From NCBI RefSeq assembly GCF_009451885.1, contig NZ_WIAO01000015.1:66452-130451 (forward strand): a stretch of DNA of 64,000 bases, given 5' to 3'. This document shows, piece by piece, positions 29,443 to 43,466 of the stretch. A model generated the notes under the pieces. That model was not told where the DNA came from and did not search any database. It saw only the letters and a program-made list of their open reading frames with translations. Made by a program: the position numbers and the translations under genes. Source of the DNA: Glycomyces albidus (lineage in GTDB: Bacteria; Actinomycetota; Actinomycetes; Mycobacteriales; Micromonosporaceae). Within the stretch, counting starts at the first letter, position 1. The number at the start of each line of letters is the position of its first letter.

Positions 29443-29513
29443 CCGTGGAGCAGCTAGGAGTGCTCGCCGCCCTGTCAAGGCGGAGGTCGCGGGTTCAAAT
29501 CCCGTCGGGACCG
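29439..29513 (+). tRNA. tRNA-Asp (GTC), AICE attachment gene
   Basis: The 75-nt gene has acceptor GGTCCCG/CGGGACC, anticodon stem CCGCC/GGCGG around loop CTGTCAA with anticodon GTC, T arm CGGGTTCAAATCCCG and discriminator G. Its 3' part from 29468 is also present at the far end of the integrated element (43402). The intact copy at this boundary keeps the tRNA functional after integration. Confidence 0.96.
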
Positions 29514-29532
29514 CAGTGAAAACCCCCAGGTT
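29468..29532 (+). repeat. attL of the AICE (65-bp core repeat)
   Basis: This block is identical over 65 bases to 43402-43466; after two differing bases another 17 match. It covers the tRNA-Asp anticodon loop, T arm, 3' end and the first arm of the following terminator. Confidence 0.93.
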
Positions 29533-29544
29533 TACCTGGGGGTT
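29521..29544 (+). terminator. tRNA-Asp terminator
   Basis: AACCCCCAGG and CCTGGGGGTT pair around the loop TTTA and are followed by CTTTCGTTT, a classic intrinsic terminator. The attR copy at 43455-43478 has the same stem with loop TTCG. Confidence 0.88.
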
Positions 29545-29597
29545 CTTTCGTTTCATAGGCTCTATGAGCGTCCATATCGACTCGTTCCCGCTTGCGC

Positions 29598-29617
29598 GGG
29601 GGCCAAAAGGGGGGCCA
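29598..29617 (+). promoter_or_regulatory. candidate integrase arm sites, left
   Basis: GGGGGCCA occurs at 29598 and again at 29609-29617, just inside attL. Three more copies lie inside attR at 43268-43297. Direct repeats near both ends fit arm-type binding sites of a tyrosine integrase. Confidence 0.45.
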
Positions 29618-29642
29618 CGCGGTTTGGCGTGGCCCCCCTTTT
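29605..29642 (-). terminator. hairpin terminator after int
   Basis: Perfect 16-bp arms (AAAAGGGGGGCCACGC and complement) flank a 6-nt loop and end in TTTT on both strands. It lies 6 bases past the integrase stop and also insulates the tRNA side. Confidence 0.85.
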
Positions 29643-29648
29643 CGGCGC

Positions 29649-30863
29649 TCAGGACTCCTCGGCGGGCGGGTCCTCGTAGGCCCCGTTCATGACCTCCATG
29701 CCCCGGGTGATGACCGGTCGCAACTGCTTGCGGTAGACCAGCCGAGTCGTGCTCGTGCGTTTATGCCCAACGAAGTTGGCAATCTGCTCCTCGCCCGCCC
29801 CCCGGTCGGAGGCGACGGAGACGAAGGTGCGTCGCCAGTCGCGCGGGCTCCACCGCTTCGGGTCGAGTCCGGCCCTGCGCAGGATCGTGCGGTGCATCCG
29901 GCGGATGTTGCCCGCGTCCTTGACGGTGTCGTTCCACGTGCCCCACACGTAGCGGATGCCAGCCGATTTGTAGCCGCGCAGCTTGCGCCATTCCCGCTGC
30001 TCGCGCTGCCAGTCGATGAGCACTTGCGCGTTGTAGGGCGTCAGCGCGACCGTGCGGCGGGATTTCTCGGTCTTGGTGTCACCGCTTTCGCGGGTCGACT
30101 CCCACACCTCCAGGTGCGGCGGCAGCGTCTCCTCATGGACGCGTCCGCAGGTGCACCGCTCCCCCGCGACCGGGTTGGCGTGGGTGTGCGCCCACTCCAG
30201 GGGCCGCAACTCCTCGGCGCGGGCGCCGGAGTTGGCCGAGGTGACGTTGTACGAGAAGATCCACGTGCCCTGGCTGGCCTTGAACACCGCCCCGGCTTGC
30301 GCCTCGGTCATGGACTCGCGTTCGCGGGTCGGCCGCCCCTCGGGCAGGTCGACCAGCTCGGCGACGTTCCGGCCAACCTTGTCGCGCCGCTGCGCCCGGC
30401 GGATGGCGCGGCGCAGGATCGACCGGGCCTTCTTAAGGCTGTCGGTCGACAGATCGCCCTTGAGGGAATGAAGCCAGTCCTCCACGTCGTCGGCGGTCAG
30501 CTCCTTGAGCTTGATCCCGCCCAGGTGCGGCAGGACGTGCAGATCGATGATGCCCTTGTGCCGCTCCAGGGTCTTCGCTGCGCCCCTGTCCTCGCGTTCG
30601 AACCAGTCGAGCACCACGGCGGCGACCGTGAGGCTGTTCGACGTGTCGAGTCCGGCCTCGTGCTCTTTGACCTTGTCGCGGAGGTTCCGGCGGGCCTTGG
30701 CCTCGGTGGTGCCGTACGCCTTGAGGCGCAGGCGCTTCCCGGACTTGGTGCGGCCGAGAGAGATCTCGGCGCGGTAGGTCTGCTTGGCCTCATCCCAATA
30801 GACGGTGCCCTCACCCTTGGGGGCCTTCTTACGGCCCTCTGCGGGCTCCTGCGGCTCGTTCAC
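29649..30863 (-). CDS. int: tyrosine site-specific integrase
   Basis: The 404-aa recombinase has an AP2-like arm-binding N-terminus (18-60), a SAM-like core-binding domain (78-170) and the catalytic domain. Catalytic residues visible are Arg215 (SGARAEE), Arg344 (RDWR), His367 (GHKRTST) and the nucleophile Tyr377 (VYRK). The residue after Arg344, usually His, is Arg (RDWRRTF). It integrates the element at tRNA-Asp. The start is a GTG at 30863 overlapping the xis stop as GTGA with a GGGGG ribosome site. A CTCG loop near 238-241 is unusual. Confidence 0.95.
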   Translation of the reverse strand: MNEPQEPAEGRKKAPKGEGTVYWDEAKQTYRAEISLGRTKSGKRLRLKAYGTTEAKARRNLRDKVKEHEAGLDTSNSLTVAAVVLDWFEREDRGAAKTLERHKGIIDLHVLPHLGGIKLKELTADDVEDWLHSLKGDLSTDSLKKARSILRRAIRRAQRRDKVGRNVAELVDLPEGRPTRERESMTEAQAGAVFKASQGTWIFSYNVTSANSGARAEELRPLEWAHTHANPVAGERCTCGRVHEETLPPHLEVWESTRESGDTKTEKSRRTVALTPYNAQVLIDWQREQREWRKLRGYKSAGIRYVWGTWNDTVKDAGNIRRMHRTILRRAGLDPKRWSPRDWRRTFVSVASDRGAGEEQIANFVGHKRTSTTRLVYRKQLRPVITRGMEVMNGAYEDPPAEES

Positions 30864-31105
30864 GCCGAGACCCCCTGTCCCTCTTCGATGAGGAGTTGGC
30901 GGTACTCCTGGAGCCATTCGGCGGGGATGCGGGTGGCACGGCCGACCTTGACGAACCGGAGCCGCCCGGCGGCGATCTCCTCATACAGCTTGGAGCGGCC
31001 GAGGCGCAGGATCCCCCCAGCCTCGGAGACGGTGTAGAACGGCTCCACGTCGAGAGCGTCGGAGCGCACGGCGTGTGCATTGACGGTCGTGGTTGGGGCT
31101 GTCAT
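30860..31105 (-). CDS. xis: excisionase, winged-helix DNA-binding protein
   Basis: The 81-aa protein is a MerR/excisionase-type DNA-binding domain: FYTVSEAGGILRLGRSKLYEEI then GRLRFVKVGRATRIPAEWLQ. Such Xis proteins bend the attachment DNA so that Int can excise the element. The ATG at 31105 is used with AAGGAAG upstream; int follows with overlapping start and stop, so the two are co-translated. A copy of the 12-bp TTGGCGGACGGG element lies 20 bases before the start. Confidence 0.9.
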   Translation of the reverse strand: MTAPTTTVNAHAVRSDALDVEPFYTVSEAGGILRLGRSKLYEEIAAGRLRFVKVGRATRIPAEWLQEYRQLLIEEGQGVSA

Positions 31106-31124
31106 GCTGGGTGTTCTTCCTTTC

Positions 31125-31136
31125 TTGGCGGACGGG
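31125..31136 (-). repeat. 12-bp AICE leader element, copy at xis
   Basis: TTGGCGGACGGG (CCCGTCCGCCAA in the gene direction), 20 bases upstream of the xis start. Identical copies precede three other AICE genes. Confidence 0.65.
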
Positions 31137-31160
31137 AAGACAAGGGCCGGTGACGTGCTG

Positions 31161-33080
31161 CTAGGCGTGGTCATCGGCCATTGCCATGTCTGGGTGCAGG
31201 TCGTAGCGGGGCGAGGGCGGTCGGCCGCTGCGGCGGCGGGCGGCGGGCCGCTCGCGGAGGTAGCCGTGTTCGACCAGGCGGGCGACGGCGTCGCGGATGG
31301 CGGCGGCCGTCGACAGGCCCCGGCGGCCCCTCAGGGCTCGGTGCATGTCGCGGACGCTCATGCCCGACTGCCCGTGGCGGGCGAGCCAGTCGAGCAGGGC
31401 CACCGCGGGGCCGGTCTCGGGCCCGGCTCCCATGTAGGACCACACGCCGAGGGCGTGGTCGGCGAAGTAGTAGCCGAGCATGGTGGCGGCGTCGAGGGTG
31501 TCGGCCTCGATCGGCGAGGCGGCCCCGGTGTTGGGGTACTTCGCCAGGTGCAGCAGTCCGGCGAGGCGGACCACGGCGCCGGTCCACTTGTTCGCCCACG
31601 ACAGGATCGGCTCCCACTCCCCGCCGGGGCCGAGGCGCGGCTCGCGGTCCCGCTCCAAGGCGACGACCTTGGCGCGCGCCTCGGGGGTGAGGTCGAGGAC
31701 GACCGGCTCGGTGCGCGGGTGCATGGCGTGCACCAGGGCGCCGAGCTTGCGCCCGTACTCGGCCTTGACGGCGGCCGGGACCGGCGGCGGGGACGGGTTG
31801 CGGAACCCGACCTTGGAGGCGGGCAGGGTGAACAGGAACCGCGCCAGCAGCCCCCGGTCTTCGAAGCCGGGCATCCGGGCGGCGTCGCGGAGCACTTCGG
31901 GTTGGACGGCGAGGCCGAGGGTCAGCGCCGGGGCGGCGACGTACTCGGCCGGGGCCGACTTGCGGACGACGCGGAGCATGTCCCCGGCGTGGCCCTTGAG
32001 GAACGCGTCCAGGTCCGGGACACCGGAGTAGCGGCCCGCGATGGTCGCGAAGATCCCGCCCTCGGCCGAGAGGATCGCGAGGCGTCCGCCCTGCTCGGCG
32101 AGCAGGCTCTTGGCAGCCTCGGGCGTGATGTCGTCGGCGACCAGCTTGGGCGACACCGGGATCGTGATCTCGTCGGCCTCGCGGGCGGCGGACTTGGCGC
32201 CGTTGGCGAGGTCGGGGTCCCCGGGGTTCTTGGAGGCGGCGGCGAGGGCTTGCTCGGCGGCGCGGCGGGCGATCTCCGATTCGGTGACCGCTTCGATGAT
32301 CCGGGGCCGGGCGTCCTCGGCGAGGGCGGCCTCGGCGTCGAGGATCGGGCGGACCATCGCCGCGAACACCGACGACTTGCGGTTGCCCGGCGGCAGCGCC
32401 GTGCAGGTGAACAGGTTGCACGGCTCCACCCAGTCGGGCCCGGCCTGGACGGCGAGGCGGCCTTGCACGGCCGTCGAGAGGACGGCGAGGGCGATCGATC
32501 CGGCGAGGTCGGTCGGGGTCTGGGTGGCCTCGGCGACGGCGTCGACCATGTCCCCGACCCAGTCGGGCAGGCACGCGGCCGGGAACGGCGGCAGGACGCG
32601 CGCCTCGGTCAGCGGCACCGGAGCGGGCCACGCCTCGCCCGGTGCGGCGACGGCGTCGAGGGCGGTGCGGGAGCGGTCGAGGACGGCAGCGACGCTCTCG
32701 CCGGTGGCCTCGGCGTACTGGTTGAGCCGCGCGGCGACCACCTTGATTTCCCGTCGGCGGGCGGCCTCGGCGATTCGGCCGGCGTAGTACTCACCCGAGG
32801 CGGGCGAGGAGACGGCGGCGATGCAGTCGTGCAGGTACGGGCCGCCGCCGACCTTGGCGAGGTGGCCCTCGTCGGCGAGGCGGGCGAGGACGGCGGCGGC
32901 CTCGGTGGGCGCGCCGTCGGCGTGCTGGGCGGCGATGGCCTCCCAGATGAGCCCGTGGCGGGGCACCTCGAACGATCCGGCGTCGATCAGGGCGGCGAGC
33001 TTGGGCACGGTGCGGCCGTCGAGCATGGCCGCACCGAGGACGATCTGCTCGGCTTGGTGGTTCGGGTCCTTGGCTTTCAT
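31161..33080 (-). CDS. AICE replication protein, DnaB_N-DUF3987 fusion
   Basis: The 639-aa protein begins with a DnaB-helicase N-terminal domain (about 5-110, AEQIVLGAAMLDGRTVPKLA; GPYLHDCIAAV) joined to a DUF3987 domain (about 150-530). The latter has a P-loop-like LPPGNRKSSVF and the acidic strand RLAILSAEGG. A winged helix at the C-terminus (570-625, SVRDMHRALRGRRGLS) may bind the origin. It is probably the helicase/initiator for autonomous replication of the excised element. No RepSA, RepAM or prim-pol protein is seen, so this may be the sole replication gene. The start ATG at 33080 follows GAAGGGA. Confidence 0.8.
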   Translation of the reverse strand: MKAKDPNHQAEQIVLGAAMLDGRTVPKLAALIDAGSFEVPRHGLIWEAIAAQHADGAPTEAAAVLARLADEGHLAKVGGGPYLHDCIAAVSSPASGEYYAGRIAEAARRREIKVVAARLNQYAEATGESVAAVLDRSRTALDAVAAPGEAWPAPVPLTEARVLPPFPAACLPDWVGDMVDAVAEATQTPTDLAGSIALAVLSTAVQGRLAVQAGPDWVEPCNLFTCTALPPGNRKSSVFAAMVRPILDAEAALAEDARPRIIEAVTESEIARRAAEQALAAASKNPGDPDLANGAKSAAREADEITIPVSPKLVADDITPEAAKSLLAEQGGRLAILSAEGGIFATIAGRYSGVPDLDAFLKGHAGDMLRVVRKSAPAEYVAAPALTLGLAVQPEVLRDAARMPGFEDRGLLARFLFTLPASKVGFRNPSPPPVPAAVKAEYGRKLGALVHAMHPRTEPVVLDLTPEARAKVVALERDREPRLGPGGEWEPILSWANKWTGAVVRLAGLLHLAKYPNTGAASPIEADTLDAATMLGYYFADHALGVWSYMGAGPETGPAVALLDWLARHGQSGMSVRDMHRALRGRRGLSTAAAIRDAVARLVEHGYLRERPAARRRSGRPPSPRYDLHPDMAMADDHA

Positions 33081-33104
33081 GGCATTCGGTGTCCCTTCGA
33101 ACGG

Positions 33105-33116
33105 TTGGCGGACGGG
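33105..33116 (-). repeat. 12-bp AICE leader element, copy at replication gene
   Basis: TTGGCGGACGGG, 25 bases upstream of the replication gene start and directly after the stop codon of the small protein gene at 33117. Confidence 0.65.
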
Positions 33117-33338
33117 CTACTTGGTGCCGTCGCGGTATTCGCGGCGGGCGGCGTCGTAAAGGCGGCGGCCGAGGCGGACGCGTCGGCCGGTGCCGTGGCA
33201 GGCGTTGCAGTAACCGGCGGCGTTGCGGCCGTCGGATCGGCACCACCAGCAGCGGCCGTAGGGGAAGGCCCAGCAGCGGAAGAGGTAGGCGAGGGCGGCG
33301 GCGAGGCCGAGGGCGGTAGCGGCGAGTGAGAGGGTCAC
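33117..33338 (-). CDS. small membrane protein with zinc-finger motif
   Basis: The 73-aa protein has an N-terminal hydrophobic helix (LAATALGLAAALAYLFRC) and a DnaJ-like zinc motif CWWCRSDGRNAAGYCNACHGTG (Cys-x2-Cys and Cys-x2-Cys), then a basic tail. Similar small proteins occur between tra and rep genes in many AICEs. The start is a GTG at 33338 with GGAG upstream. Its function is unknown; the zinc knuckle could bind DNA or a partner. Confidence 0.72.
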   Translation of the reverse strand: MTLSLAATALGLAAALAYLFRCWAFPYGRCWWCRSDGRNAAGYCNACHGTGRRVRLGRRLYDAARREYRDGTK

Positions 33339-33382
33339 GGTTGCTCCATTCGGCTGGTTTTTGGGTGAGGTCGGCTAGGGGC

Positions 33383-33467
33383 GCTAGCGGCTAACGCCCT
33401 GATCAGGTGTGGTGTGGGGTGCTAGCGGGCCCGCTATCGTTAGCGCGGGGCCCGCTAGCGCTAGCGG
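33383..33467. repeat. GCTAGCGG repeat cluster beside traB, candidate clt
   Basis: Four copies of the 8-mer GCTAGCGG or CCGCTAGC, plus degenerate forms, crowd into 85 bases between the traB stop and the small protein gene. Several form palindromes such as GCTAGCGGGCCCGCTATC. TraB proteins of streptomycete elements recognise clusters of an 8-bp repeat (clt) near traB, so this is a candidate transfer locus; it could also be a terminator. Confidence 0.55.
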
Positions 33468-33470
33468 CTC

Positions 33471-35594
33471 CTATCGGCCTCCGGTTCGGCCCTCGCGGGC
33501 CTTGTCGAGGTCGCCTCGGTTGAGGCCGCGCCGGTTGACGACCTCGCCGCCGACGCGGCGGCCGACGCCCTTGGTGGAGAGCCCGTAGGGCTTGACGGCG
33601 GCCGTCAGCGCCTCGGTCTTGGCGGTGTCGGCGAGGCCCGTCCACTGCCCGTAGACCTCGGGGCGCAGCTCGGCGAGGCGGTCGACCAGGACCGTGTTCC
33701 ACACGTTGGCCTCGCCGCCGGGCCAGACGGCGGCGAGGTCGTCCAGGACGTGGTGCGCGGGAGCGGCGGCCGTGGCGGTGGCCTCGCCTGCGGCGTGACC
33801 GGCGAGGGTGCCGCGCTCGATTCGCAGGGCCCGAGCGCGGGCGGCGATGCGGTCGGCGGCGGGCCCGTCGACGAACGCGCCCTTGACGATCAGGGCCGCG
33901 TCGGCGGCACCGACCAGGTAGAACACGCCCCGGTCCCGCTTGGTGAACATGGTCGCCCGGATGCCGTTCTTGTAGGCCGAGGTCCCCAGGATCATGTCGT
34001 TTTCGACCTGGCCCATGACCCGCAGGCACGCCCTGGTGCCGACGTTCGCCGAGACGCCGGTCGGCAAGCTGTCCTTGTCGGGCCGCTGCGTCGCCAGCAG
34101 GAGGATGACGCCGAGGGCGCGGCCGAGCTTGACGACCTTCTCCGCCAGCTCGGCGGCCTCCTTCCCGTACTCGGGGTGGCTGAACAGCTCCTGGCACTCA
34201 TCGATCGCGACGACGAGGGGGTGCAGGCCGAGGCCCTTGCGGCTCGCGAGTTCGGGCGTGACCTTGTTCTCGGGGCACAGGTCCCGGGGCAGGCCCTTGA
34301 TGATCCGGGCCCGCCGCTTGCACTCGGCCCGCAAGTCCCGCAAGGCGATCAGCGCGGCCTCGATCTCCTCGTCGTCGGCACCGGAGGCGTAGCGGGTGGC
34401 GTACTGCTCGGCGAAGGCGAGGTCACCGGTCCCCTTGAGCTCGAACACCTGGACCTCGGCGCGGGCGTCGAGTCCGGCAGCGAGCACGGGCAGCTTGACC
34501 AGGAACGTCTTGCCCATGCCGGGAATGGACCCGACCAGCCAGTTCGTGTACATGAGGTCAGCGGTCACAGCCTTGCCCCTCGGGTCGACGCCGAGCGGGA
34601 ACGGCGCGAACAGGTCGACCGTGCCGCCCTTGGCGAGCGGCCACGCCACGGCCTTGGCGTCGGCGAGGTCGGTGTCCCCCACCCACAGGACCAGGCGGCC
34701 CGGGTGGACATCGGACTGGCCCTCGGGCCACACACACCCGAGCGGGCGGGCGAGGGCGGCGGCGAGCTTGTCGCGCCGGTCGATCACCTCAACGGCGGTG
34801 GTCCCGGCGGGCAGGTCGATCACGGCCCGCCAGCCGGAGCCGTCGCGGCTGATCGGCTCGGGCCAGTGGATGCCCTCCCCGCCCTTGGCGATCGCCGTCA
34901 ACGCGGCGATACCGATGCGCGACAACGCCTTCTCGACCATGGGCGAGGTCAGCGGGCGCAGCTTGACCTTGACCACGGCCCGGGTCACCAGCGGCTTGTC
35001 CGCAGGTTTCCCGGCGAGGCCGAGGGCGGCGACGGTCCCGCCGAGAGCCGACCAGGCGAGGGGGTCCGGGGCACCGAAGCCGAGGTAGAGACCCGCACCG
35101 GTCAGGCCGAGCGCGCCGGTGATGGTGAGCGCGCCCCGGAACCGGACATGCCGGTCCCGCAGGCGGACAAGGCCCTGATAGGCGGCGTAGTCGTGCGCGG
35201 TGACCGCGTCGGAGCGGATCGGGCGGCCCTCGGCGTCCGAGGCCCACCGCCAGACCGCGCCGACCACGCGGGCCGTCCCGACCGGGGACCACGCCGCCAG
35301 GCGCGCACCGTAGAGGGGCAGGCGCACCCCGTGGTAGGCGCACCGGTAGGCCACGAGCTTCCCGAACCGGGTCAGCTCGGCCGCCAGACCGGACCGCGAC
35401 AGGACCCAGGCCGGGAGGATCGGGGCCCGCCGGTCGGCCTCGGGTGCGTTCCACGCCCGGTGCGCCTCGGCGTCGTCCACCGGGACGGCGGCCGCGTCGA
35501 TGTAGTCCTCGTCCGGGGCGATGGTCTCGACCTCGGCCCGGTCGCCGTTCAGCTCGGCCTCGGCGGCCTTCCAATCGAAGTTCTCGATCGTCAT
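33471..35594 (-). CDS. traB: FtsK/SpoIIIE-type conjugative DNA translocase (TraB/TraSA-like)
   Basis: The 707-aa protein moves double-stranded DNA between mycelial compartments. Two hydrophobic helices (about 148-190) precede the motor domain, with Walker A GSIPGMGKTF (about 353-362) and Walker B LVVAIDECQE (about 459-468). LLLATQRPDKDSLP is the FtsK-type motif after Walker B. The C-terminal 80 residues (LTAAVKPYGLSTKGVGRRV) form the winged helix expected to recognise clt repeats. It is the central transfer gene of the element. ATG at 35594 with AAGGAG. Confidence 0.93.
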   Translation of the reverse strand: MTIENFDWKAAEAELNGDRAEVETIAPDEDYIDAAAVPVDDAEAHRAWNAPEADRRAPILPAWVLSRSGLAAELTRFGKLVAYRCAYHGVRLPLYGARLAAWSPVGTARVVGAVWRWASDAEGRPIRSDAVTAHDYAAYQGLVRLRDRHVRFRGALTITGALGLTGAGLYLGFGAPDPLAWSALGGTVAALGLAGKPADKPLVTRAVVKVKLRPLTSPMVEKALSRIGIAALTAIAKGGEGIHWPEPISRDGSGWRAVIDLPAGTTAVEVIDRRDKLAAALARPLGCVWPEGQSDVHPGRLVLWVGDTDLADAKAVAWPLAKGGTVDLFAPFPLGVDPRGKAVTADLMYTNWLVGSIPGMGKTFLVKLPVLAAGLDARAEVQVFELKGTGDLAFAEQYATRYASGADDEEIEAALIALRDLRAECKRRARIIKGLPRDLCPENKVTPELASRKGLGLHPLVVAIDECQELFSHPEYGKEAAELAEKVVKLGRALGVILLLATQRPDKDSLPTGVSANVGTRACLRVMGQVENDMILGTSAYKNGIRATMFTKRDRGVFYLVGAADAALIVKGAFVDGPAADRIAARARALRIERGTLAGHAAGEATATAAAPAHHVLDDLAAVWPGGEANVWNTVLVDRLAELRPEVYGQWTGLADTAKTEALTAAVKPYGLSTKGVGRRVGGEVVNRRGLNRGDLDKAREGRTGGR

Positions 35595-35672
35595 AGTCGT
35601 TGGCTCCTTTCCAGTTCGGAGCGGTAGGGGCGGGGCCGGTCGAGCAGCTGACCGGCCCCGCCGGGGCGAGGT

Positions 35673-36530
35673 CTAGGCGTCTTCCTTGACCAGGTGCGCC
35701 AGGGCGGCGCCGAGGCCGAGGACGGCGACAGGGATGCAGGCGACGGCGGCGGTGATGAGCGGGTGCGCCGCAGGGACGTTCGCGGCCGACATCAGGTGGT
35801 AGGCGATCTGCCCGGCCGCGCCGATCCCGAGCGCCAGCAGCGCCGAGACGCGGGCGAACGCAATCGCCTTGGCACCGGCCCGGCCCGACAGCCAGACATA
35901 GAGCGCATAGGCGGAGTAGGTCTCCATCCCGATGGGGAGCGTGATGGACGTATCGATCACGAACGAGTCCGCGATGCCCGGGAGCGGGTGGACGGGCCCG
36001 AACCCGGCGAGCTGACCCAGGCCCACCCAGCCGGACCAGATAGCGACCGTGGCCGGGAGCATGAGCAGGAGCACGGGCCAGGTCGCCAGACGGCGGCGGG
36101 TCCGGGGCGGGTCCGCCTCGGCGGGCCCGGCGACCGGCTCGGCCGCAGTGGTGCCGGTGTCCGCCACAGCGGCGGGAGCGGGCGCGACCGGGTCTGCGAG
36201 GGTCGCGGCCTCGGGCTTCACCTCGGCCGGGGCCGCGTCGACCACGGGCCGGGACTCGCGGGTCTCGTCCTCAGCGGGCCCGGTGGAGGCCGGTGCGGCG
36301 GCGGGTTCGTGCGGGGCCGTCGCGGTGGCCGGGTCGGCCGGGGCCGGGTTCGGGACGTAGTCGGCGAGTTCGGCAAGGACCGCGTTGGCCTTGGGCGCGC
36401 CGATCCGCAGGCGGGCCTTGAGTTGGTTGCGGGACGGGATCGAACCCAGTTCGTCAGCCAGGGCCCGCGCCTGCGGGACCAGGTGCTCAACCGGGGCCGG
36501 GTAGGCGCTGCGCGTAGTCGTCATGGTCAT
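35673..36530 (-). CDS. Spd-like AICE membrane protein (DUF2637-type)
   Basis: The 285-aa protein has three parts. An N-terminal helix-turn-helix-like segment (about 10-60, IPSRNQLKARLRIGAPKANAV) is followed by an Ala/Pro-rich linker (60-150) and a C-terminal domain with four membrane helices (WPVLLLMLPATVAIW to ITAAVACIPVAVLGLG). The C-terminus resembles DUF2637 membrane proteins linked to traB and to intramycelial spread of the element. It begins 78 bp upstream of traB on the same strand and is probably co-transcribed. Confidence 0.72.
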   Translation of the reverse strand: MTMTTTRSAYPAPVEHLVPQARALADELGSIPSRNQLKARLRIGAPKANAVLAELADYVPNPAPADPATATAPHEPAAAPASTGPAEDETRESRPVVDAAPAEVKPEAATLADPVAPAPAAVADTGTTAAEPVAGPAEADPPRTRRRLATWPVLLLMLPATVAIWSGWVGLGQLAGFGPVHPLPGIADSFVIDTSITLPIGMETYSAYALYVWLSGRAGAKAIAFARVSALLALGIGAAGQIAYHLMSAANVPAAHPLITAAVACIPVAVLGLGAALAHLVKEDA

Positions 36531-36542
36531 CGGTGCTCACCC

Positions 36543-36770
36543 CTAGGACAGCGAGAAGGTCGGAAAGCCGGGGGCGAGGGTGTCACCGAGGGCGCGGTCA
36601 ATGTCGAAGGCCACGAACCGCTCCGGGGCCGGGCCGGTGAGGGCGCGGTCCAGTTCGGCGAGGCCGGCCTCGATCTGCGGCCATTCGATCTCGATCGCGT
36701 CGAGTTCAGAGAAGGACGGCTCACCGTCGAGCCAGTCCGGAAGTTCGGGTGTTGCGAGTGCGGTGGTCAT
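36543..36770 (-). CDS. small acidic AICE protein, DUF6284-like
   Basis: The 75-aa protein has the pattern WLDGEPSFSELDAIEIEWPQIEAGLAELDRA typical of small proteins found next to spd/tra genes in AICEs (DUF6284-like, by recollection of the family pattern). Its function is unknown. It lies 12 bp upstream of the Spd-like gene. The ATG at 36770 has GGGAG 8 bases before it. Confidence 0.68.
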   Translation of the reverse strand: MTTALATPELPDWLDGEPSFSELDAIEIEWPQIEAGLAELDRALTGPAPERFVAFDIDRALGDTLAPGFPTFSLS

Positions 36771-36790
36771 TGGTTGTCTCCCTTGGTGTC

Positions 36791-36802
36791 TTGGCGGACG
36801 GG
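36791..36802 (-). repeat. 12-bp AICE leader element, copy at DUF6284-like gene
   Basis: TTGGCGGACGGG, 21 bases upstream of the start codon at 36770. Confidence 0.65.
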
Positions 36803-36874
36803 AATGGCTTGGCATCATCAGCGCCGGAGGGGCCACCTACCGACGGACCACGGGCCCGGAGGCCCGGGTTTCGC

Positions 36875-37036
36875 CTACCAGCGGCCCTTGCGGGCGTCGG
36901 CGACCTTGCGCCGGGCGTCCTCGGCGGCCTTGGTGGTCTTCTGCTCGTCGCGCTTGGCGGCCTCGCGGGCGCGATCGCTCGCGAAGCGGTTCTGACCGAC
37001 GACGGTGGTGCGGGTGCGGCTCGGGGTCTTCGGCAT
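36875..37036 (-). CDS. small basic AICE protein
   Basis: The 53-aa protein is highly charged (SRTRTTVVGQNRFASDRARE; AAEDARRKVADARKGRW), probably helical, and possibly nucleic-acid binding. The start ATG at 37036 has an ideal AAGGAGAA site. It is flanked on both sides by similar intergenic blocks (a hairpin plus CTTGGCAT). I do not recognise a named family. Confidence 0.65.
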   Translation of the reverse strand: MPKTPSRTRTTVVGQNRFASDRAREAAKRDEQKTTKAAEDARRKVADARKGRW

Positions 37037-37098
37037 GGCGTTCTCCTTGTGCTGGTTGTGGCTTGGCATCGTCAGCGGGTCGGGTGCCACCCGGGCCC

Positions 37099-37117
37099 GG
37101 ACCAGGCGGAGTGCCTG
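37099..37117 (-). other. repeated inter-cistronic hairpin
   Basis: ACCAGGC and GCCTGGT pair around ACTCC, following GGCGAAACC just after the stop at 37128. A counterpart (GGCGAAACC then a GGGCC/GGCCC hairpin) follows the stop at 36875. Both are followed by CGCTGA(C/T)GATGCCAAGC. They may be attenuators or processing sites in the AICE operon. Confidence 0.5.
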
Positions 37118-37127
37118 GTTTCGCCGG

Positions 37128-37565
37128 TCAAAGGGTCACGGTGATGAGCGCGGAGATCAGCAGCCATCCGAGGTGCCAGGACTGGTCGAGCTTGTAAGCG
37201 GCCTCGGGGTCGGCGTCGAGCCAGCCGCCGTGGCCGGTCAGCCGTGCCAGGGCCGCGAGGGGCTTGCGGCGGTCGATCACGTAGTGGGTGATGCCGTTGA
37301 CGGCGAGGCCGACGGCCACACCGAGGACCGAGAGGGTGCCGAGGATGCCGAGAGCGGCGGTCACGCCGAGGACGGCGACCAGGCAGGTAGCAAGGTAGGT
37401 CAGAACATGCGTGAGGCAGGCCAGGTGACCGGCGGCCCCGGCGTTGCCCTTGGCGCAGGCGGAGGTGTGGGACTGGACCCAGTGGTCACCGACCGCGTGA
37501 GCGGCGTACAGGGTCGGCGCGACGGCGCCGAAGGCGAGAGCGGTCTCGATCTGCTCGGGGGTCAT
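37128..37565 (-). CDS. AICE membrane protein, DUF3307-like
   Basis: The 145-aa protein has three or four membrane helices. It starts with AVAPTLYAAHAVGDHWVQSH, contains a Cys-rich loop (SACAKGNAGAAGHLACLTHV) and the segment GLAVNGITHYVIDRRKPLAALA, and ends in a last helix. Conserved His and Asp in HAVGDHWVQ and THYVIDRR recall DUF3307 proteins. It is the first gene of the minus-strand AICE operon (37565 to about 33117) and faces the GntR gene across three palindromic operators, so it is probably repressed by that regulator. Confidence 0.7.
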   Translation of the reverse strand: MTPEQIETALAFGAVAPTLYAAHAVGDHWVQSHTSACAKGNAGAAGHLACLTHVLTYLATCLVAVLGVTAALGILGTLSVLGVAVGLAVNGITHYVIDRRKPLAALARLTGHGGWLDADPEAAYKLDQSWHLGWLLISALITVTL

Positions 37566-37585
37566 GTGGGGCCTCCTACGGCGTC

Positions 37586-37597
37586 TTGGCGGACGGG
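37586..37597 (-). repeat. 12-bp AICE leader element, copy at DUF3307-like gene
   Basis: TTGGCGGACGGG, 21 bases upstream of the start codon at 37565. Confidence 0.65.
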
Positions 37598-37615
37598 AGG
37601 ACGCGAAGGAACGTC

Positions 37616-37645
37616 CTAACCAACCTGGCTAGCCAGGTTGGTTAG
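37616..37645. promoter_or_regulatory. 30-bp perfect palindrome, primary GntR operator
   Basis: A perfect 30-bp inverted repeat is centred on CCTGGCTAGCCAGG, with arms extending through AACC and GGTT. It lies 50 bases upstream of the minus-strand AICE operon and 88 bases before the GntR gene. Confidence 0.85.
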
Positions 37646-37663
37646 CAATGACCTTAGGGGTCT

Positions 37664-37673
37664 TGGCTAGCCA
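37664..37673. promoter_or_regulatory. GntR operator 2 (TGGCTAGCCA)
   Basis: This 10-bp palindrome, identical to the core of operator 1, lies 19 bases from it, between the divergent genes. Confidence 0.7.
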
Positions 37674-37702
37674 TGTCAACCACTCTGGGCAGAAATTTCC
37701 AT

Positions 37703-37716
37703 CCTGGCTAGCCAGG
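37703..37716. promoter_or_regulatory. GntR operator 3 (CCTGGCTAGCCAGG)
   Basis: A perfect 14-bp copy lies 16 bases before the GntR start codon and is followed by a half-site-like CCTGGCTGGCATGG that runs into the ATG. This position would let the protein repress its own gene. Confidence 0.8.
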
Positions 37717-37732
37717 TGGTAGCCTGGCTGGC

Positions 37733-38614
37733 ATGGAGGATTACACGGATGAGTACGACTACCTGGGGAAACTCGACCCAGATAGCACCGACAGCTCTTC
37801 AGTCCAAATCGCAAATCGCATCAAGGCCGCGATCCTGACTGGCAAGTTCGCCCCCGGCGAGACCCTGCCTTCAAACCAGAAGCTTCAGCAGCGCTTCGGC
37901 GTCGCCCGCGAAACCGTGAAGAGTGCGTTCAAGATCCTCACGGACAAGGAAAAGTTGGTGGTGACGCAACAGGGGCGCCTTCCCCGGGTTCGTGTCAAGA
38001 CGCATCGGAGCGTTGAACTTCGTCCGCACGTGGAGGCGTTGTTTAAAGATGACCACGTCGCCATCGACTTCGCCGGATTCTCTGGCGAGACCCTGAAAGG
38101 CGTCGTGTCAGAGCCGCTAGACCGAATCCGGCTCGGTGAGCTGACCCCACAGGACGTCAAGCTGCGCGTCATGGTCTCCGACATGCGCATGCCGATGGCG
38201 CTGCCCACTCCGGTCGACCCTTCCTACGACGCCGAGGCGGTGACCAGTCGCATGGCTCGCATCACCGACCGCGCGTTGGAGTCGATCGTTAACGACGTGC
38301 ACGAGCTAGAGGAACTCGGCCTGATCAACACCGGATCGGTTGAGGTCCGAATGCACGGGATCGCACCGGTGTTCAAGCTGTTCATCCTCAACGATTCCGA
38401 GGTCTTCTTCGGCTTCTATCCGATCGTCCAGCATGCGGTGCCGATCAATGGTGACCGCGTCGAGATTTTCGACCCGATGGGAAAGGACGCCAGCCTGTTC
38501 CACTTCTCAAGCACCGGAGAGGAATCCGAGCAGGGATCGATGTTCGTGGACTCCGCGCGCGCCTGGTTCGACTCGGTGTGGGTCAACGTCGCAACTCCTC
38601 GGAGCCTCGGATGA
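37733..38614 (+). CDS. GntR-family AICE regulator
   Basis: The 293-aa protein has a GntR winged helix (about 22-95, QIANRIKAAILTGKFAPGETLPS and RFGVARETVKSAFKIL) and a C-terminal domain of about 190 residues that is not UTRA-like by eye (GIAPVFKLFILNDSEVFFGFYP). It is probably the master repressor of the element, controlling the divergent operon and itself through the GCTAGC palindromes. Its codon use is less GC-biased than the chromosome. Its stop overlaps the HAD gene start, so the two are translated together. Confidence 0.86.
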   Translation: MEDYTDEYDYLGKLDPDSTDSSSVQIANRIKAAILTGKFAPGETLPSNQKLQQRFGVARETVKSAFKILTDKEKLVVTQQGRLPRVRVKTHRSVELRPHVEALFKDDHVAIDFAGFSGETLKGVVSEPLDRIRLGELTPQDVKLRVMVSDMRMPMALPTPVDPSYDAEAVTSRMARITDRALESIVNDVHELEELGLINTGSVEVRMHGIAPVFKLFILNDSEVFFGFYPIVQHAVPINGDRVEIFDPMGKDASLFHFSSTGEESEQGSMFVDSARAWFDSVWVNVATPRSLG

Positions 38615-39267
38615 GGCTCGATCCAGAGGAAGTACTGCTGCGCAAGTCCCTGCTGATGCTGGACTTCGATGGGCCTGTATGCAGTGTGTTTGCCGGGTAC
38701 CCAGCGCCCCAAATCGCACTGGAGCTAATCACCTCCATTGGTGAGCATTCCGCTCAGCTTGCCGCCGTGCTCAAGGGCGAGAGCGACCCGATGGAAGTGC
38801 TTCGGGCCGCGGCCCGGTCACTCTCTCGCGATCGGGTGAAGCAGATAGACGAGCAACTGAGTCGAGCAGAGATGAAGGCCGTCGAGACCGCCCAGCCGAC
38901 TGCCGGCATGGCTGACCTGATTGAAGTTGCACGACGCGCGGGCATCGGAGTTGTGATCGTGAGCAACAACAGCTCGGACCCGATCGGCAGCTACCTGACG
39001 CGATGCGGCCTTGATGTGGCAGTCGATCACGTCATCGGTCGGCCCTTTGGGAGACCCGAACAGATGAAACCTGATCCCTACCTGCTCAACCAAGCCCTCA
39101 AAGTAACCGGCCTTCCGGCGTCCCGAGCTTGCTTCATCGGTGATTCGGTGACCGACGTTGAGGCCGGGCGGGCCGCCGGGGTTACAACCATCGGTTACGC
39201 GAACAAGCCCGGGAAGGCGGAGCGGTTGGAGAGAGCCGGGGTCCACTTCGTCGTGGACTCGTTCTGA
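38611..39267 (+). CDS. HAD-family hydrolase coupled to GntR
   Basis: The 218-aa protein has HAD motif I LLMLDFDGPVCSVFAG, motif II VVIVSNNSS, a conserved Lys in QMKPDPYLL and motif IV CFIGDSVTDVEAGRAAG, with a helical cap between I and II. It resembles phosphoglycolate-phosphatase-type enzymes. The ATG at 38611 overlaps the GntR stop as ATGA. Coupling suggests that it produces or removes the small molecule sensed by the GntR protein; this is inference. Confidence 0.84.
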   Translation: MRLDPEEVLLRKSLLMLDFDGPVCSVFAGYPAPQIALELITSIGEHSAQLAAVLKGESDPMEVLRAAARSLSRDRVKQIDEQLSRAEMKAVETAQPTAGMADLIEVARRAGIGVVIVSNNSSDPIGSYLTRCGLDVAVDHVIGRPFGRPEQMKPDPYLLNQALKVTGLPASRACFIGDSVTDVEAGRAAGVTTIGYANKPGKAERLERAGVHFVVDSF

Positions 39268-39277
39268 GTCTTCCCTT

Positions 39278-39521
39278 GGACAGAATTGACAGAATGGACA
39301 GAACTCGGTAAAGCATGCCTTGAGCTGCGGAAACGCGAGCGCTCGGGACATGGACAAAACTCGGACAGAACTGTGACAGAACCCGGCGGCCGATCTCGGC
39401 CGCCGGGTTCTGTCCATGTCCGGCGGAGTTCTGTCACAGTTCTGTCCATGTCGCTGCGACCAGCGTTGCCCCAGGTAGACAGCTCCTTTACCGAGTTCTG
39501 TCCATTCTGTCAATTCTGTCC
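39278..39521. repeat. 244-bp nested inverted array of GGACAGAA motifs
   Basis: Outer arms 39278-39313 and 39486-39521 are perfect 36-bp inverted repeats. A second pair, 39363-39382 and 39428-39447, is perfect over 20 bp. The centre 39375-39414 is a 19-bp-arm hairpin with a 2-nt loop. About six GGACAGAA-like motifs point right in the left half and six TTCTGTCC-like motifs point left in the right half. It is non-coding. It could be the replication origin, a partition or transfer site, or a MITE-like insertion; no target-site duplication is seen. Confidence 0.85.
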
Positions 39522-39535
39522 GGGGGTCGGTTCCC

Positions 39536-39868
39536 TCAGCGCCTCGGCGGCGGAGCCGTAGCGGCGAGGTAGGCGTTGACACGCCCGTGTTGGCGGTCCC
39601 GCCAGTCCTCCGGTCGGGTGGTCGCCGAGCCGCGCCAGTCGATGCGGTCGGCGCGGTCGCCTGTCGCTTGGAACGTCCCAACGCGCTCATCTCGGCCGTC
39701 GCCGACGCGGAGCACCAGGCATCCGTCACGGCGTACCTGGTCGAGGAACAGCTCAACGATTTCCCCGGGGGCTTCCCAGGTGCGAACCCAGTTCATCCGG
39801 GCCGGGACGACTCCGAGCATCGGCTCGGGGTCTTCCGCCAGGTCGTCATTGGTCGATACGCTGTCCAT
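39536..39868 (-). CDS. hypothetical AICE protein
   Basis: The 110-aa acidic protein contains ARMNWVRTWEAPGEIVELFLDQVRRDGCLVLRV and ends in VNAYLAATAPPPRR. It has no signal peptide or membrane helix. The ATG at 39868 has AAGGGG 7 bases upstream; longer frames run into the divergent promoter region. It is divergent from the short GntR gene at 40034 across 165 bp that include CTGTCTGCATACAGG. I do not recognise the family. Confidence 0.6.
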   Translation of the reverse strand: MDSVSTNDDLAEDPEPMLGVVPARMNWVRTWEAPGEIVELFLDQVRRDGCLVLRVGDGRDERVGTFQATGDRADRIDWRGSATTRPEDWRDRQHGRVNAYLAATAPPPRR

Positions 39869-40033
39869 GTCTCGCCCCTTCGTCGGGTGAGGCCACACCC
39901 TGGGGCCGGTGCTAGCGGTCGCCAGGGTCTTTCCGTATGGCTCCAGCGTAGCCAGCCTGTCTGGTCCTGTCTGCATACAGGTGAACCTATCGATCCTGGT
40001 AGTTCGGTAGGTGTACCGCTCTACGGTCAGAGC

Positions 40034-40327
40034 ATGGATGCAGACGCCGAGATCGACCACGAGGCCATTACGCCGGTCTACGCACAGCTCGTGGCGATCC
40101 TGCGCGCCCGCATCGAACGCGGCGACTGGGCCGAGGGCCGCCGGATCATGTCGGGCCCGCAGCTTGAGCAGGCGTACGGGCTGTCTCGCGACACGGTCCG
40201 GAAGGCGCTGCGCGTTCTCATCGATGAGGGTGTGCTGACGGCGGTACCGGGACGAGGAACCTTTGTGGCCCCCGCTGACGGCGCCGAACCCTCAAGACCG
40301 GACGGCACTGGGGAGTCTGCCGAGTAG
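40034..40327 (+). CDS. short GntR-family regulator
   Basis: The 97-aa protein is essentially a lone GntR winged helix: TPVYAQLVAILRARIERGDW, SGPQLEQAYGLSRDTVRKAL and VLTAVPGRGTFVA, with a short charged tail and no effector domain. Such single-domain GntR proteins are common in AICEs. It lies upstream of the cargo pair and divergent from the hypothetical gene at 39868, and may regulate either. Confidence 0.85.
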   Translation: MDADAEIDHEAITPVYAQLVAILRARIERGDWAEGRRIMSGPQLEQAYGLSRDTVRKALRVLIDEGVLTAVPGRGTFVAPADGAEPSRPDGTGESAE

Positions 40328-40402
40328 TCGCGAGTTCTCTGGGCGCTGCGGGGCCTGCGGGCCGCGTGCCGCGATTGTGGCACTTGTGGGCAATACTTCG
40401 GC

Positions 40403-41749
40403 ATGACGTTCTGTGATCAATGCGGAGCGAAGCTCCCGCCCGGTACCACGGCCGTCTGCCCCGCGTGCGGGGCGCTCCTAGTCGGACCGGTTGCCCCAGC
40501 CCCTGCCGAGGCGACCCGCTGGGATGGTCGCCCTGCCGTCTGGAGTTCGGCGGGACGCTGGCTGTGGTCGGCCGTCGCCGCCCACCCGGCCGGGACGGCA
40601 TCGGCGATCGTGTGCGCGTGGTTCGGCCTGCCCCTGGCGGTGCTCCTCGGCGCGGTCGGCACCGTCGCCGGAGCCGTCCTCGGATTCTTCTCCGGGACGC
40701 CCCTCGGTGAGGGCGTCCAGTCGCGGCTATGGGTGCTGTTCGACCTCGTCTTGCCGCTGCCCGTGGCGATTCCGGACCTGATTCCGGACATCGCCTGGCA
40801 GCTCGGAGCCATGCTCGGACTGATCATCGGGGCCGTCTACGGCGGCGCGTCCCTCGCCTGGCTCGGCCTGTCCGGGTCGTGGCGGGCGCTGTGGGAGGCC
40901 GACCCGACGTGGCCGCTGTCCATGGCGGCCGGGAACGTCGCCGCCGCGCTCGTCCTCGGCGTCGCCTTCACTGCGGCCATGGTCGCCGCCGAACGCTGGC
41001 GGCTCACCCGCTTCGGCGGGGCCCGGGCGGCAAGCGGACGCGAGGCCGACATGATCGCACCGGCCCTCGCCGAAGCGGCCCGCCGCCTCGGCGTCGCCTC
41101 CGTCCCGCACGTCCTCATCACCGACGGCGGCGGCCCCGCCGTCGTCGCACACGCCCGGCACGTCGTCATCTCCCGGGCGCTCCTCGCCGAGTGCGTCGGC
41201 GACGGCGACCGGCTGACCGCGCTGCTCGGGCGCGAGCTGGTCCACTGGCGGGCAGGCCACCCGGTCACCCAGTTGTGGGTGCGCGGCGTCGCGCTGCCGC
41301 TGACGGCCGTCTACGAGGTCGCCGCCCGCCTGCTCGCCCCGTCGACCAACACCAGGGCCCGGCCGTTGACGCTGACGCTGTACCTGCTGCTGTGGCCGGT
41401 CATCTTCACCGTGCAGCGCATCATGGTCCCGCTGCAAGCCAGGTGGTGGCGGCGGGCCACCGTCGAGGCCGACGCGGTCGCCGCCGCCTGCGGGTGGGGC
41501 CCGGCCCTCGCCGAAGCACTCGCCACCACCCCGGCCGCCGAGGGCCCCGGCGTCGTCACCTGGCGGACCGCGTTCGACACCACGCCACCCGCCGAGGCCC
41601 GTATCGACGCTCTGGAGCGGGCGGGCGTGCCCCGCCGCGACCTTGCCGCCGACCTCGCCGGTTGTAGGAACCCCAACCGCCGGCACGGGGTCCCGGTTGT
41701 AGAACTCCCACAACTCAGACGACAGGAGGTCCCCGCCGATGCCGACTGA
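40403..41749 (+). CDS. zinc-ribbon membrane protein with degenerate M48 protease domain
   Basis: The 448-aa protein begins with a zinc ribbon (CDQCGAKLPPGTTAVCPACG, 4-23), then several membrane helices (about 55-190), then an M48-like domain. The region matching the M48 HExxH motif reads GRELVHWRAGH, so the first zinc-binding His is Arg. The downstream third ligand (TVEADAVAAACG) is retained. This suggests loss of protease activity or an altered metal site. It is AICE cargo; its stop overlaps the next gene by 11 bases, so the two form an operon. Confidence 0.72.
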   Translation: MTFCDQCGAKLPPGTTAVCPACGALLVGPVAPAPAEATRWDGRPAVWSSAGRWLWSAVAAHPAGTASAIVCAWFGLPLAVLLGAVGTVAGAVLGFFSGTPLGEGVQSRLWVLFDLVLPLPVAIPDLIPDIAWQLGAMLGLIIGAVYGGASLAWLGLSGSWRALWEADPTWPLSMAAGNVAAALVLGVAFTAAMVAAERWRLTRFGGARAASGREADMIAPALAEAARRLGVASVPHVLITDGGGPAVVAHARHVVISRALLAECVGDGDRLTALLGRELVHWRAGHPVTQLWVRGVALPLTAVYEVAARLLAPSTNTRARPLTLTLYLLLWPVIFTVQRIMVPLQARWWRRATVEADAVAAACGWGPALAEALATTPAAEGPGVVTWRTAFDTTPPAEARIDALERAGVPRRDLAADLAGCRNPNRRHGVPVVELPQLRRQEVPADAD

Positions 41750-43022
41750 CACCACCGACGCCCCCGCCGCCGCTGCCGACTGCGACCACGCCGGGACCCG
41801 CGACGGCGCCCGGTTCTGCCCCGCCTGCGGAGCCGCCCTCGCACCCGACGCCACACCGACACCCGTCGCCACCGCGATACCGCATCCGGCCGGAATCCCT
41901 CGGCCCGCGCAGTACGGCCGGGCCGATCGGGCGCGGCGGATTCGCCTGCCGCGCCGGGCCGCCGTCGCGGTCGCCGTCCTCGCCGCCGCTGCGGTCGCGG
42001 CCGCCGGGACGCTCTACCTCGTACAGGGACAGCGGTACTCGCCAGAGCAACCCGCGCGCGAGCTGATCGCGGCTCTGGAGACCGGCGACGGCCCGGCCCT
42101 CGCCGCCCTCCTCGGCGTCGAGGCCGACGCCCACCCGCTCCTCGCCGCCGGTGCCCTCGAGACCGGATATGAGCCGCCGACCGACCTCGCCGTCGTCGGC
42201 GTCGACTACGACACCGCCGGGCAGTGGGAGGCGACCGGCGACGGCATGTCGTCCCGCTGGGTCGAGGACTACACCCAGCGCCCCGACATGGAACACGCGA
42301 CCGTGACCATCGCCTACAGCCTCAACGGGGAAGCGCACACCATCGAGCTTGACGCCACCCGCGAGGGCGGCGGGTGGGCCCGCCCCTGGAGCCTCAACCC
42401 GGCCGTCCTGGAAACGACGGTGACGCCCTCGGCGAGACGGCCCGGGCCGGTACAGCTCGCCGCCGCCACCGTCGACCACGCCCCGCCCGCCGAGGACGAC
42501 CAGTGGAGCACTCAGGACGACCCCACAGGCCTGCTCGCCCTCCCGGGGGTCTACACCGCCACGGCACCGGGCGACGCGCTCTGGACGGACGCTGAGGCGA
42601 CCGTGGCCGTCCCCCTCGGCGAGGACACCGCCGCCGTGCTCTCCGCCGACATCCGGCCCGACGCCGAGGTCGACACCGTCGCAGCCGTCGTCGCCCACAT
42701 CGACGCGTGCGCGGCGATCGGCGGCTACCCCAACGCCGAATGCGGGTGGCGCGACGACTCCGGATGGATCACGCTCCTGCCCGACGACACGCCGTGGACC
42801 CTGGAGACGTATCCGGCTGTCGAGGTCGAGCCCGACTACGCCGGGGAACTTGAGGTCTACACCGTCGAACCCGGCTCGGCCGTCGCCACGTACGAGACGG
42901 CGGCCGGAGAGGCGCGCACCGTTACCGCCGAGGTCCACGCCAATGGAACGGCGACCCTCGGCGACGGCGGCGCGCTCGTATTCCAACCGCAAGCGTGCGA
43001 CCTCGGCGCTTCGTATTGCTAA
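41739..43022 (+). CDS. zinc-ribbon, membrane-anchored protein of unknown function
   Basis: The 427-aa protein has an N-terminal zinc ribbon-like segment (CDHAGTRDGARFCPACG, 15-31), a basic stretch (RARRIRLPRR), one membrane helix (about 72-93) and a large external domain of about 330 residues rich in Asp, Glu and Thr with Cys pairs near the end (CDLGASYC). The ATG at 41739 has AGGAGG. It shares its N-terminal layout with the upstream gene, suggesting that the two proteins act together. I do not recognise the external domain. Confidence 0.65.
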   Translation: MPTDTTDAPAAAADCDHAGTRDGARFCPACGAALAPDATPTPVATAIPHPAGIPRPAQYGRADRARRIRLPRRAAVAVAVLAAAAVAAAGTLYLVQGQRYSPEQPARELIAALETGDGPALAALLGVEADAHPLLAAGALETGYEPPTDLAVVGVDYDTAGQWEATGDGMSSRWVEDYTQRPDMEHATVTIAYSLNGEAHTIELDATREGGGWARPWSLNPAVLETTVTPSARRPGPVQLAAATVDHAPPAEDDQWSTQDDPTGLLALPGVYTATAPGDALWTDAEATVAVPLGEDTAAVLSADIRPDAEVDTVAAVVAHIDACAAIGGYPNAECGWRDDSGWITLLPDDTPWTLETYPAVEVEPDYAGELEVYTVEPGSAVATYETAAGEARTVTAEVHANGTATLGDGGALVFQPQACDLGASYC

Positions 43023-43401
43023 TGCGCTGCGGGCGTAGAACACTCACCCTCACGAATCCGGCTCTGATCAGCAAGGACATCCCGGAATCCGGCCCGCTGA
43101 GAGCCACTGAGACGAAACCGGCCCTACCCCAGGTAGGACCCGACCGTAAACGGCCCTCAGGAACGATCTCAGCGGGTCGCGTTTTCGCAGGTCAAAGCCC
43201 GGTTAGCGACAGAGCCAGGCATTGACCGAGCACGCGCAGCGTCACTCCCATATAGACGGTGCCCGCAGGGGGCCAGGGGGGGCCAATTGGGGGGCCAATG
43301 CCAGTGAACCTCGGCGGACCTTGGCGGACAACCTCCGCCCGCATATCCGCTGGTAGACGAGCGTTGATGTCAGAAGATCCCAGTTGGCTCGCGGCTCCAT
43401 T
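43023..43401. other. AICE right-end intergenic region
   Basis: No gene is seen in these 379 bases. They hold the three GGGGGCCA-type repeats at 43268-43297 that mirror those inside attL, and the short palindrome CTACCCCAGGTAG near 43128. This should be the right arm of attP. Confidence 0.6.
43268..43297 (+). promoter_or_regulatory. candidate integrase arm sites, right
   Basis: Three direct copies of GGGGGCCA or GGGGGGCCA start at 43268, 43276 and 43289, about 100 bases inside attR, matching two copies near attL. Confidence 0.45.
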
Positions 43402-43466
43402 CGCCCTGTCAAGGCGGAGGTCGCGGGTTCAAATCCCGTCGGGACCGCAGTGAAAACCCCCAGGTT
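43402..43466 (+). repeat. attR of the AICE (65-bp core repeat)
   Basis: Identical to attL at 29468-29532. It carries the tRNA-Asp 3' half from the anticodon loop and is followed by the original terminator stem with loop TTCG. The 5' half of the tRNA is absent here, so this is a tRNA remnant, not a gene. Confidence 0.93.

Follow-up and report, generated by a model that had tools for sequence, protein, structure and literature searches.

A nested, inverted iteron array proposed as the replication origin of an AICE in Glycomyces albidus

The origins of phage P4 and of the SaPI satellites carry inverted sets of short iterons. Both kinds of element are integrative, and a Rep with helicase or primase activity starts replication at the element's own origin (PMC7145576, in the passages available). 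In the Vibrio PICMI satellites, which are also integrative, deletion of the primase gene prim lowers the number of circular copies, and one of the domains by which prim is recognised is DUF3987 (PMC10803314, likewise in part). AICEs are actinobacterial elements that integrate at tRNA genes and, after excision, replicate autonomously with their own Rep and origin; the Rep types named in the available passages of PMC3218068 are RepSA, RepAM (DUF3631) and Prim-Pol (RepPP), and the transfer of pSAM2 is reported there to need autonomous replication. The closest tested precedent for the locus described here is, judged by analogy of plan, the Streptomyces plasmid pWTY27, in which RepA footprints a long inverted iteron repeat that is needed for replication (PMC3583192). 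According to the passages of that paper, pWTY27 replicates bidirectionally, its Rep gene or genes adjoin non-coding iterons (five GTGGGAAC and five inverted TTCCCAC), as at most of the related rep genes described below, and rep lies beside a primase/polymerase gene, as it does in the plasmid record NBC_00562 discussed below.

We analysed a stretch of 64,000 nucleotides of the Glycomyces albidus genome (hereafter the window) that contains an AICE. The left att repeat of this element corresponds to the 3′ part of a tRNA-Asp gene, and tRNA-Asp genes are called at both of its ends (29439-29514 and 43376-43448). The features that define an AICE are all present, namely att repeats at a tRNA gene, an integrase, a Rep and an FtsK-type Tra, the last with a family match below the Pfam cut-off:

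29468-43466, no strand: AICE with the block, 14 kb, bounded by exact 65-bp direct att repeats (29468-29532 and 43402-43466)
29649-30917, minus strand: tyrosine integrase (annotation search)
30860-31174, minus strand: excisionase-like HTH_17 protein (annotation search)
31161-33080, minus strand: Rep, with a DnaB N-terminal domain (residues 7-105) and DUF3987 (187-548) from Pfam and a C-terminal winged helix (about 554-628) from a model
33471-35594, minus strand: TraB, FtsK/SpoIIIE-type translocase (weak family matches only)
37733-38614, plus strand: GntR-family regulator (Pfam)
38578-39267, plus strand: HAD-family hydrolase (Pfam), ending just upstream of the block
39278-39521, no strand: inverted nested iteron array, proposed origin of replication (repeat and motif analysis)

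The element resembles known AICE modules in its integration at a tRNA gene and differs from them in its Rep family: the types listed (RepSA, RepAM and Prim-Pol) do not include the Rep of the window, the available passages of PMC3218068 mention neither iterons nor DnaB, and DUF3987 occurs nowhere in that paper. RepSA initiates rolling-circle replication at a nicked dso (PMC3218068), unlike the mode proposed here. The preliminary description knew of no AICE feature with this architecture, which agrees with the literature passages, pWTY27 being a plasmid precedent. Unlike our block, pWTY27 uses another repeat word; its RepA (522 aa) was compared by description only. Pairs of GTGGGAAC occur in 18 of 246 genomes (presumably Streptomyces), at 20 loci, none of which has a Rep match nearby. 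P4 and the SaPIs are set apart, on their descriptions, by other Rep families, hosts and iteron words, and for the PICMIs, also compared by description, the available part of PMC10803314 holds no mention of iterons. DUF3987 is predicted to be a helicase of mobile-element replication and is called uncharacterised (Kazlauskas and colleagues, in the part available). Within the open-licence literature and the terms tried, we found no paper that joins DUF3987 Reps to inverted iterons, and the letters of the repeat and of the box described below returned only unrelated papers.

The block is 244 bp of non-coding DNA (39278-39521) flanked by the stop codons of two convergent open reading frames (38578-39267, plus strand; 39536-40060, minus strand), with a G+C content of 57% against 72% for the window. 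It contains 12 GACA[A/G]AA sites, 11 of them GACAGAA and one GACAAAA, arranged as follows:

39279-39303, plus strand: outer left iteron triplet, 9-bp pitch (core starts 39279, 39288 and 39297)
39321-39335, plus strand: box TGAGCTGCGGAAACG between the outer and inner iterons (core TGA[ACG]CTG)
39353-39381, plus strand: inner left iteron triplet, 11-bp pitch (core starts 39353, 39364 and 39375)
39375-39414, no strand: central hairpin, 19-bp arms, 2-nt loop (palindrome analysis)
39408-39446, minus strand: inner right iteron triplet (core starts 39408, 39429 and 39440)
39464-39478, minus strand: putative second copy of the box on the right, degenerate, agreeing by eye at 11 of 15 positions (sequence reading)
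39496-39520, minus strand: outer right iteron triplet, 9-bp pitch (core starts 39496, 39505 and 39514)

The geometry given in the preliminary description was confirmed throughout: perfect 36-bp outer arms (39278-39313 and 39486-39521), perfect 20-bp inner arms (39363-39382 and 39428-39447) that lie within a 25-nt pair of 92%, a central 19-bp hairpin (39375-39393 and 39396-39414) with a 2-nt loop, and six motifs on each strand, all of which point inward. Its count of twelve GGACAGAA motifs needs amending, in that the exact word occurs seven times and twelve is the number for the degenerate core GACA[A/G]AA. Start-to-start spacing and strand order read +9+9+56+11+11+33-21-11-56-9-9-, and the array thus consists of several short repeats in register, at pitches of 9 bp and about 11 bp. 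Of the 13 GACANAA sites in the window, 12 fall inside the block; across 100 first-order Markov copies of the window the biggest cluster had three, so chance can be excluded as the source of the array. No DnaA box (with up to one mismatch) and no clear AT-rich stretch was found within the block, a point against an origin. Neither an AT-rich unwinding element nor a DnaA box is needed by all iteron plasmids, and a block without a DnaA box would fit an initiator that brings its own helicase.

Three of the 22 genomes of the genus carry the block, that of the window included. The copies in the other two (G006, 86% identity; G010, 84%) keep all 12 sites and their spacing, and when the three copies are aligned, central-stem changes are seen by eye to be answered in part by changes on the opposite arm. 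The G010 element has a Rep 83% identical to that of the window, while TraB, Xis and Int of the window find no match in it. Its Tra is a different FtsK-like protein (L008:3244-5373, minus strand) without detectable similarity to the window's TraB. This is module exchange inside a young element group, with Rep and block conserved. In G006, the 1.7 kb preceding the block has no blastn match to the window, and the block therefore stands as an island of 86% identity. A palindrome of about 250 bp in a convergent gap might be read as a MITE, as had been suggested at the outset, or as some other repeat or a bidirectional terminator between convergent genes. However, the block occurs once in its own 5.76-Mb genome, a reverse-strand self-match aside, and so is not a MITE; the isolated copy in G006 and the survival of the layout beside the rep genes of relatives, where it is spelled in other words, also speak against this group of readings, to which we give almost no credence. 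A blastn search of the block against plasmids gave four weak matches only.

The protein most probably tied to the block is encoded at 31161-33080. Its N terminus resembles solved DnaB domains in sequence (PDB) and in fold, and PHROGs places residues 141-593 in a DNA helicase family. The structural model is of modest quality (mean pLDDT 68, pTM 0.49, with a poor DUF3987 core) and gives residues 554-628 the helix and strand order of a winged helix. A search for RepAM (DUF3631) or Prim-Pol (PF09250) identity in Pfam returned only DUF3987 and the DnaB N-terminal domain. From these matches and the model, together with the covariation described below, we propose that Rep is an iteron-binding initiator and helicase.

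Relatives of this Rep were found in 80 of 300 genomes of the family and in 30 of 348 of the order (some genomes being common to both), in two plasmid records and in one contig of a viral collection. A scan for three GACAGAA words at 9-bp pitch gave at least 80 matches, most of them outside Actinobacteria; six loci were read, and among the matches listed, those in Saccharopolyspora ipomoeae, Actinopolyspora biskrensis and a Stackebrandtia form arrays in inward-facing pairs. A stricter pattern that requires T ahead of every GACA occurs in 0 of 394 genomes of the class, and the window itself does not fit it. In the first two species, a DUF3987 Rep 47-53% identical to that of the window adjoins the array; in the Stackebrandtia, a Rep in the same identity range lies about 2.7 kb from it. 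Two DUF3987 loci outside Actinobacteria have no such array.

We assembled a first set of 108 stretches with 109 rep genes, a subset of the places with matches. At many of these loci the region 3′ of rep shows three direct iterons followed by three inverted ones, in words at 9-bp pitch (TGACAGAA, TGCCAGAA, TGGCCNAA or CCGCAGAA). The most divergent group uses GTTGACA, GGTGACA, GCTGACA or GGCGACA instead, with a pitch of 10 bp in most cases. A cluster of class words lies at the stop codon of 83 of the 109 reps, with classes defined by eye on the same 109; among 813 windows drawn at random from those stretches, 29 have one. Compact arrays came out poorly in a simple 6-mer ranking, and a score combining periodicity with dyad symmetry was adopted; its best site in the whole stretch lies between -250 and +300 of the rep stop in 73 of 109 cases, with 5.0 expected by position. 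Many of the loci counted are close kin, and when Reps were reduced at 80% identity the two figures became 33/53 (class-word cluster) and 29/53 (periodic-plus-dyad site). An independent set, presumably of Streptomyces, had Rep matches in 42 of 246 genomes (46 match places, 25 loci read); with the classes fixed beforehand, arrays were found in 22 of the 25 (18 GACA and 4 CGC), and the remaining three have CCACAGAA arrays.

Neither array test places an array at the rep stop for 21 of the 109 reps. Nine of these have an array elsewhere in the element (the window, L007, L008, L174, L175, L177 with its array in L279, L178 with its array in L280, L181 and L210), and L198, L226 and L269 have weaker or unclassed word clusters; no array was found in L176, L179, L180, L182, L194, L224, L234, L235 and L266, among which L176, L179 and L224 stop at, or close to, the end of their contig. 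The window thus differs from the 83 relatives in which the array adjoins rep, since its block lies 6.2 kb from its own. Iterons often serve control as well as initiation. The distance would suit a Rep-binding control site, for copy number, incompatibility or autoregulation of rep, with the true start elsewhere, like the satellite crr or inc iterons, and the two compact arrays in tandem at L213 could be read in the same way. However, at most loci read the array at rep is the sole strong array of the stretch, and the nested dyad layout with its box is elaborate for an operator; we regard a control site as unlikely.

The layout persists while the iteron word changes. G021 carries TGGCCAA iterons with the spacing +9+9+56+11+21, mirrored on the right by 11-56-9-9, and G007 and G016 have TGGCCA-type arrays. 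NBC_00562, a circular 18,451-bp Streptomyces plasmid record with genes for Prim-Pol, a DUF3987 (YfjI) protein, an HTH protein, an integrase and an FtsK-type protein, has ten GACANAA sites after the DUF3987 gene, with two 56-bp gaps; in arrays of Pseudonocardiaceae the corresponding gap is 66-77. The box core TGA[ACG]CTG recurs across several iteron types, with 45 sites in 34 of 45 nested arrays (8.0 expected; maximum of 16 in 200 simulations). It is also found outside these arrays, at 19 sites in 11 of the 22 genomes of the genus, some plainly in coding DNA. Five such Glycomyces loci are L285, L288, L291, L286 and L292; three share a GGTTCGCAAG hairpin flank, one box precedes TTCTGTCA and one follows CTGACAAAACC, and the 15-bp box may mark other replication modules. 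At L215:5490-5600, in a Tsukamurella tyrosinosolvens plasmid record, only the left half of the nested array follows the DUF3987 gene.

The same comparison bears on whether the block acts as a folded strand, that is, as a single-strand origin or cruciform signal. As single-stranded DNA it folds far better than its shuffles (z = -16.4), and G000, G006, G010, G002 and G016 all retain a central hairpin, with arms of 17-21 bp and stem letters that differ. By contrast, the same test, badly centred for G007, detected no such palindrome in G007 or G021, spacing and iteron word are better kept than pairing in the spacers, and the words covary, as described next, with a domain of the kind that binds double-stranded DNA. 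We consider a folded-strand signal very improbable.

A Rep tree built without the winged helix requires 19 or more switches of iteron class. When columns are ranked by covariation with iteron class, the final 90 residues, where the winged helix lies, account for 13 of the top 25 for the 9-bp words and for 17 of the top 25 for the 10-bp words. Residue 581 separates the classed loci by position 2 of the iteron: all 93 loci with G there have Arg, and all 21 with C have Thr, Ser, Ala or Val; these counts include eight loci classed by hand, with the array away from rep, exclude 18 unclassed reps and, for the 10-bp classes, depend on the analyst's choice of aligning GACA with the 9-bp words. L266, one of the unclassed, was left out of the trees. 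Unclassed L226, L230 and L232 have Ile, Ala or Val at 581 and no G at iteron position 2. The rule for residue 581 was seen on the first set and then held in 25 later loci; independent contrasts on supported branches agree with it in five of five cases (p = 0.0625, the minimum possible from five). Tyr580 occurs in 10 of 10 TGGCC-type loci and also in 5 of 33 GACA loci of the first set, and the near sisters G002 (GACAGAA) and G007 (TGGCCAA) have His and Tyr, respectively, at this position.

Because relatives carry the same layout, usually beside rep, and the spelling of the repeat changes with the DNA-reading domain of Rep, we think it highly probable that the block is the iteron replication origin of the AICE, bound by the element's own Rep. 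The preliminary description counted an iteron-bearing replication origin among its candidates and coupled it to the gene at 31161, and the association of array with rep and the joint change of word and predicted winged helix both support it; they also point to a cognate Rep with a DNA-binding domain on the same element.

Another reading is clt, the cis-acting transfer site bound by FtsK-like TraB, which the preliminary description also named. Streptomyces clt sites are likewise arrays of 7-9-bp direct and inverted repeats, bound by TraB-type proteins and tied to tra (PMC4170104 and PMC3583192, in the passages available). In AICE-like plasmids such short repeats lie beside tra, that of pWTY27 with four TGACACC (PMC3583192), and TraB recognises 8-bp TRS repeats (PMC4170104). 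Under this explanation the word should follow the element's TraB, whereas it follows Rep: G010 keeps the block and all 12 sites with a dissimilar Tra, G007 has a TraB 70% identical to that of the window, yet TGGCCAA iterons, and the arrays of relatives lie at the rep stop in words that track the winged helix. Two Tra queries matched in 29 of 40 stretches, and 5 of the 11 without a match have an array at rep, one in a stretch of only 4.3 kb. Because the block is kept beside an unrelated Tra in G010 and the iterons differ beside a homologous TraB in G007, we judge a transfer site decidedly unlikely. For a partition or exclusion site, a further early candidate, no positive evidence emerged. Many loci of Micromonosporaceae type, L189, L191 and L193 among them, have dense CTAGCG/CGCTAG hexamers in both orientations in the interval that separates the Tra gene from rep, some 2.4-2.7 kb ahead of the rep stop; this region is a possible clt or partition site.

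If the block is the origin, the AICE would excise and replicate as a circle. The winged helix at the C terminus of Rep would bind the GACANAA iterons, its Arg581 touching the G in position 2 of the word. This binding would start replication, Rep then opening the DNA and either acting as the helicase or loading one. More speculatively, each inward set of three iterons might seat one Rep assembly, so that two helicases would face each other and replication would be bidirectional, a guess from the dyad; the TGA[ACG]CTG box could bind a second factor or mark the site of unwinding. A plan of facing assemblies is comparable to that of double-hexamer viral origins. We suggest tentatively, leaning somewhat towards doubt, that the array represents an undescribed class of origin in a large actinobacterial ICE family, in which two head-to-head sets of iteron triplets seat two facing initiator-helicase assemblies and a short amino-acid code in the winged helix of Rep (Arg581 reading G at position 2; Tyr580 in the TGGCC type) lets elements switch origin specificity repeatedly. 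Such switching, if true, would let related AICEs share one cell.

AICEs carry genes between antibiotic-producing bacteria. If the origin assignment is right, it would add a Rep and origin type to those of AICEs and give DUF3987 a defined DNA target. It would also provide dozens of natural Rep/iteron pairs of different spelling for work on DNA recognition and incompatibility, and small replicons for genera with few vectors.

Other candidate roles for the block were examined and set aside. Rfam gives only sub-threshold mir-266 matches, attributable to chance, which does not make the block an RNA family. An operator for the GntR regulator was rejected on G006, where the block is kept but the GntR-HAD stretch goes unmatched at the DNA level and GntR matches over only 63 residues, at 38%; a site for Xis or Int was rejected on G010, which has no match to either. 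Elsewhere in the window, two matches to the type II hammerhead ribozyme lie on the minus strand (36802-36876 and 37056-37126; 33.9 and 30.1 bits), below the gathering score of 37, and none at that score was found in six related stretches. At L246 and L247 (G083:C1:7368184-7386295), three DUF3987 reps follow one another at a pitch of about 8.1 kb, which suggests tandem copies of one element.
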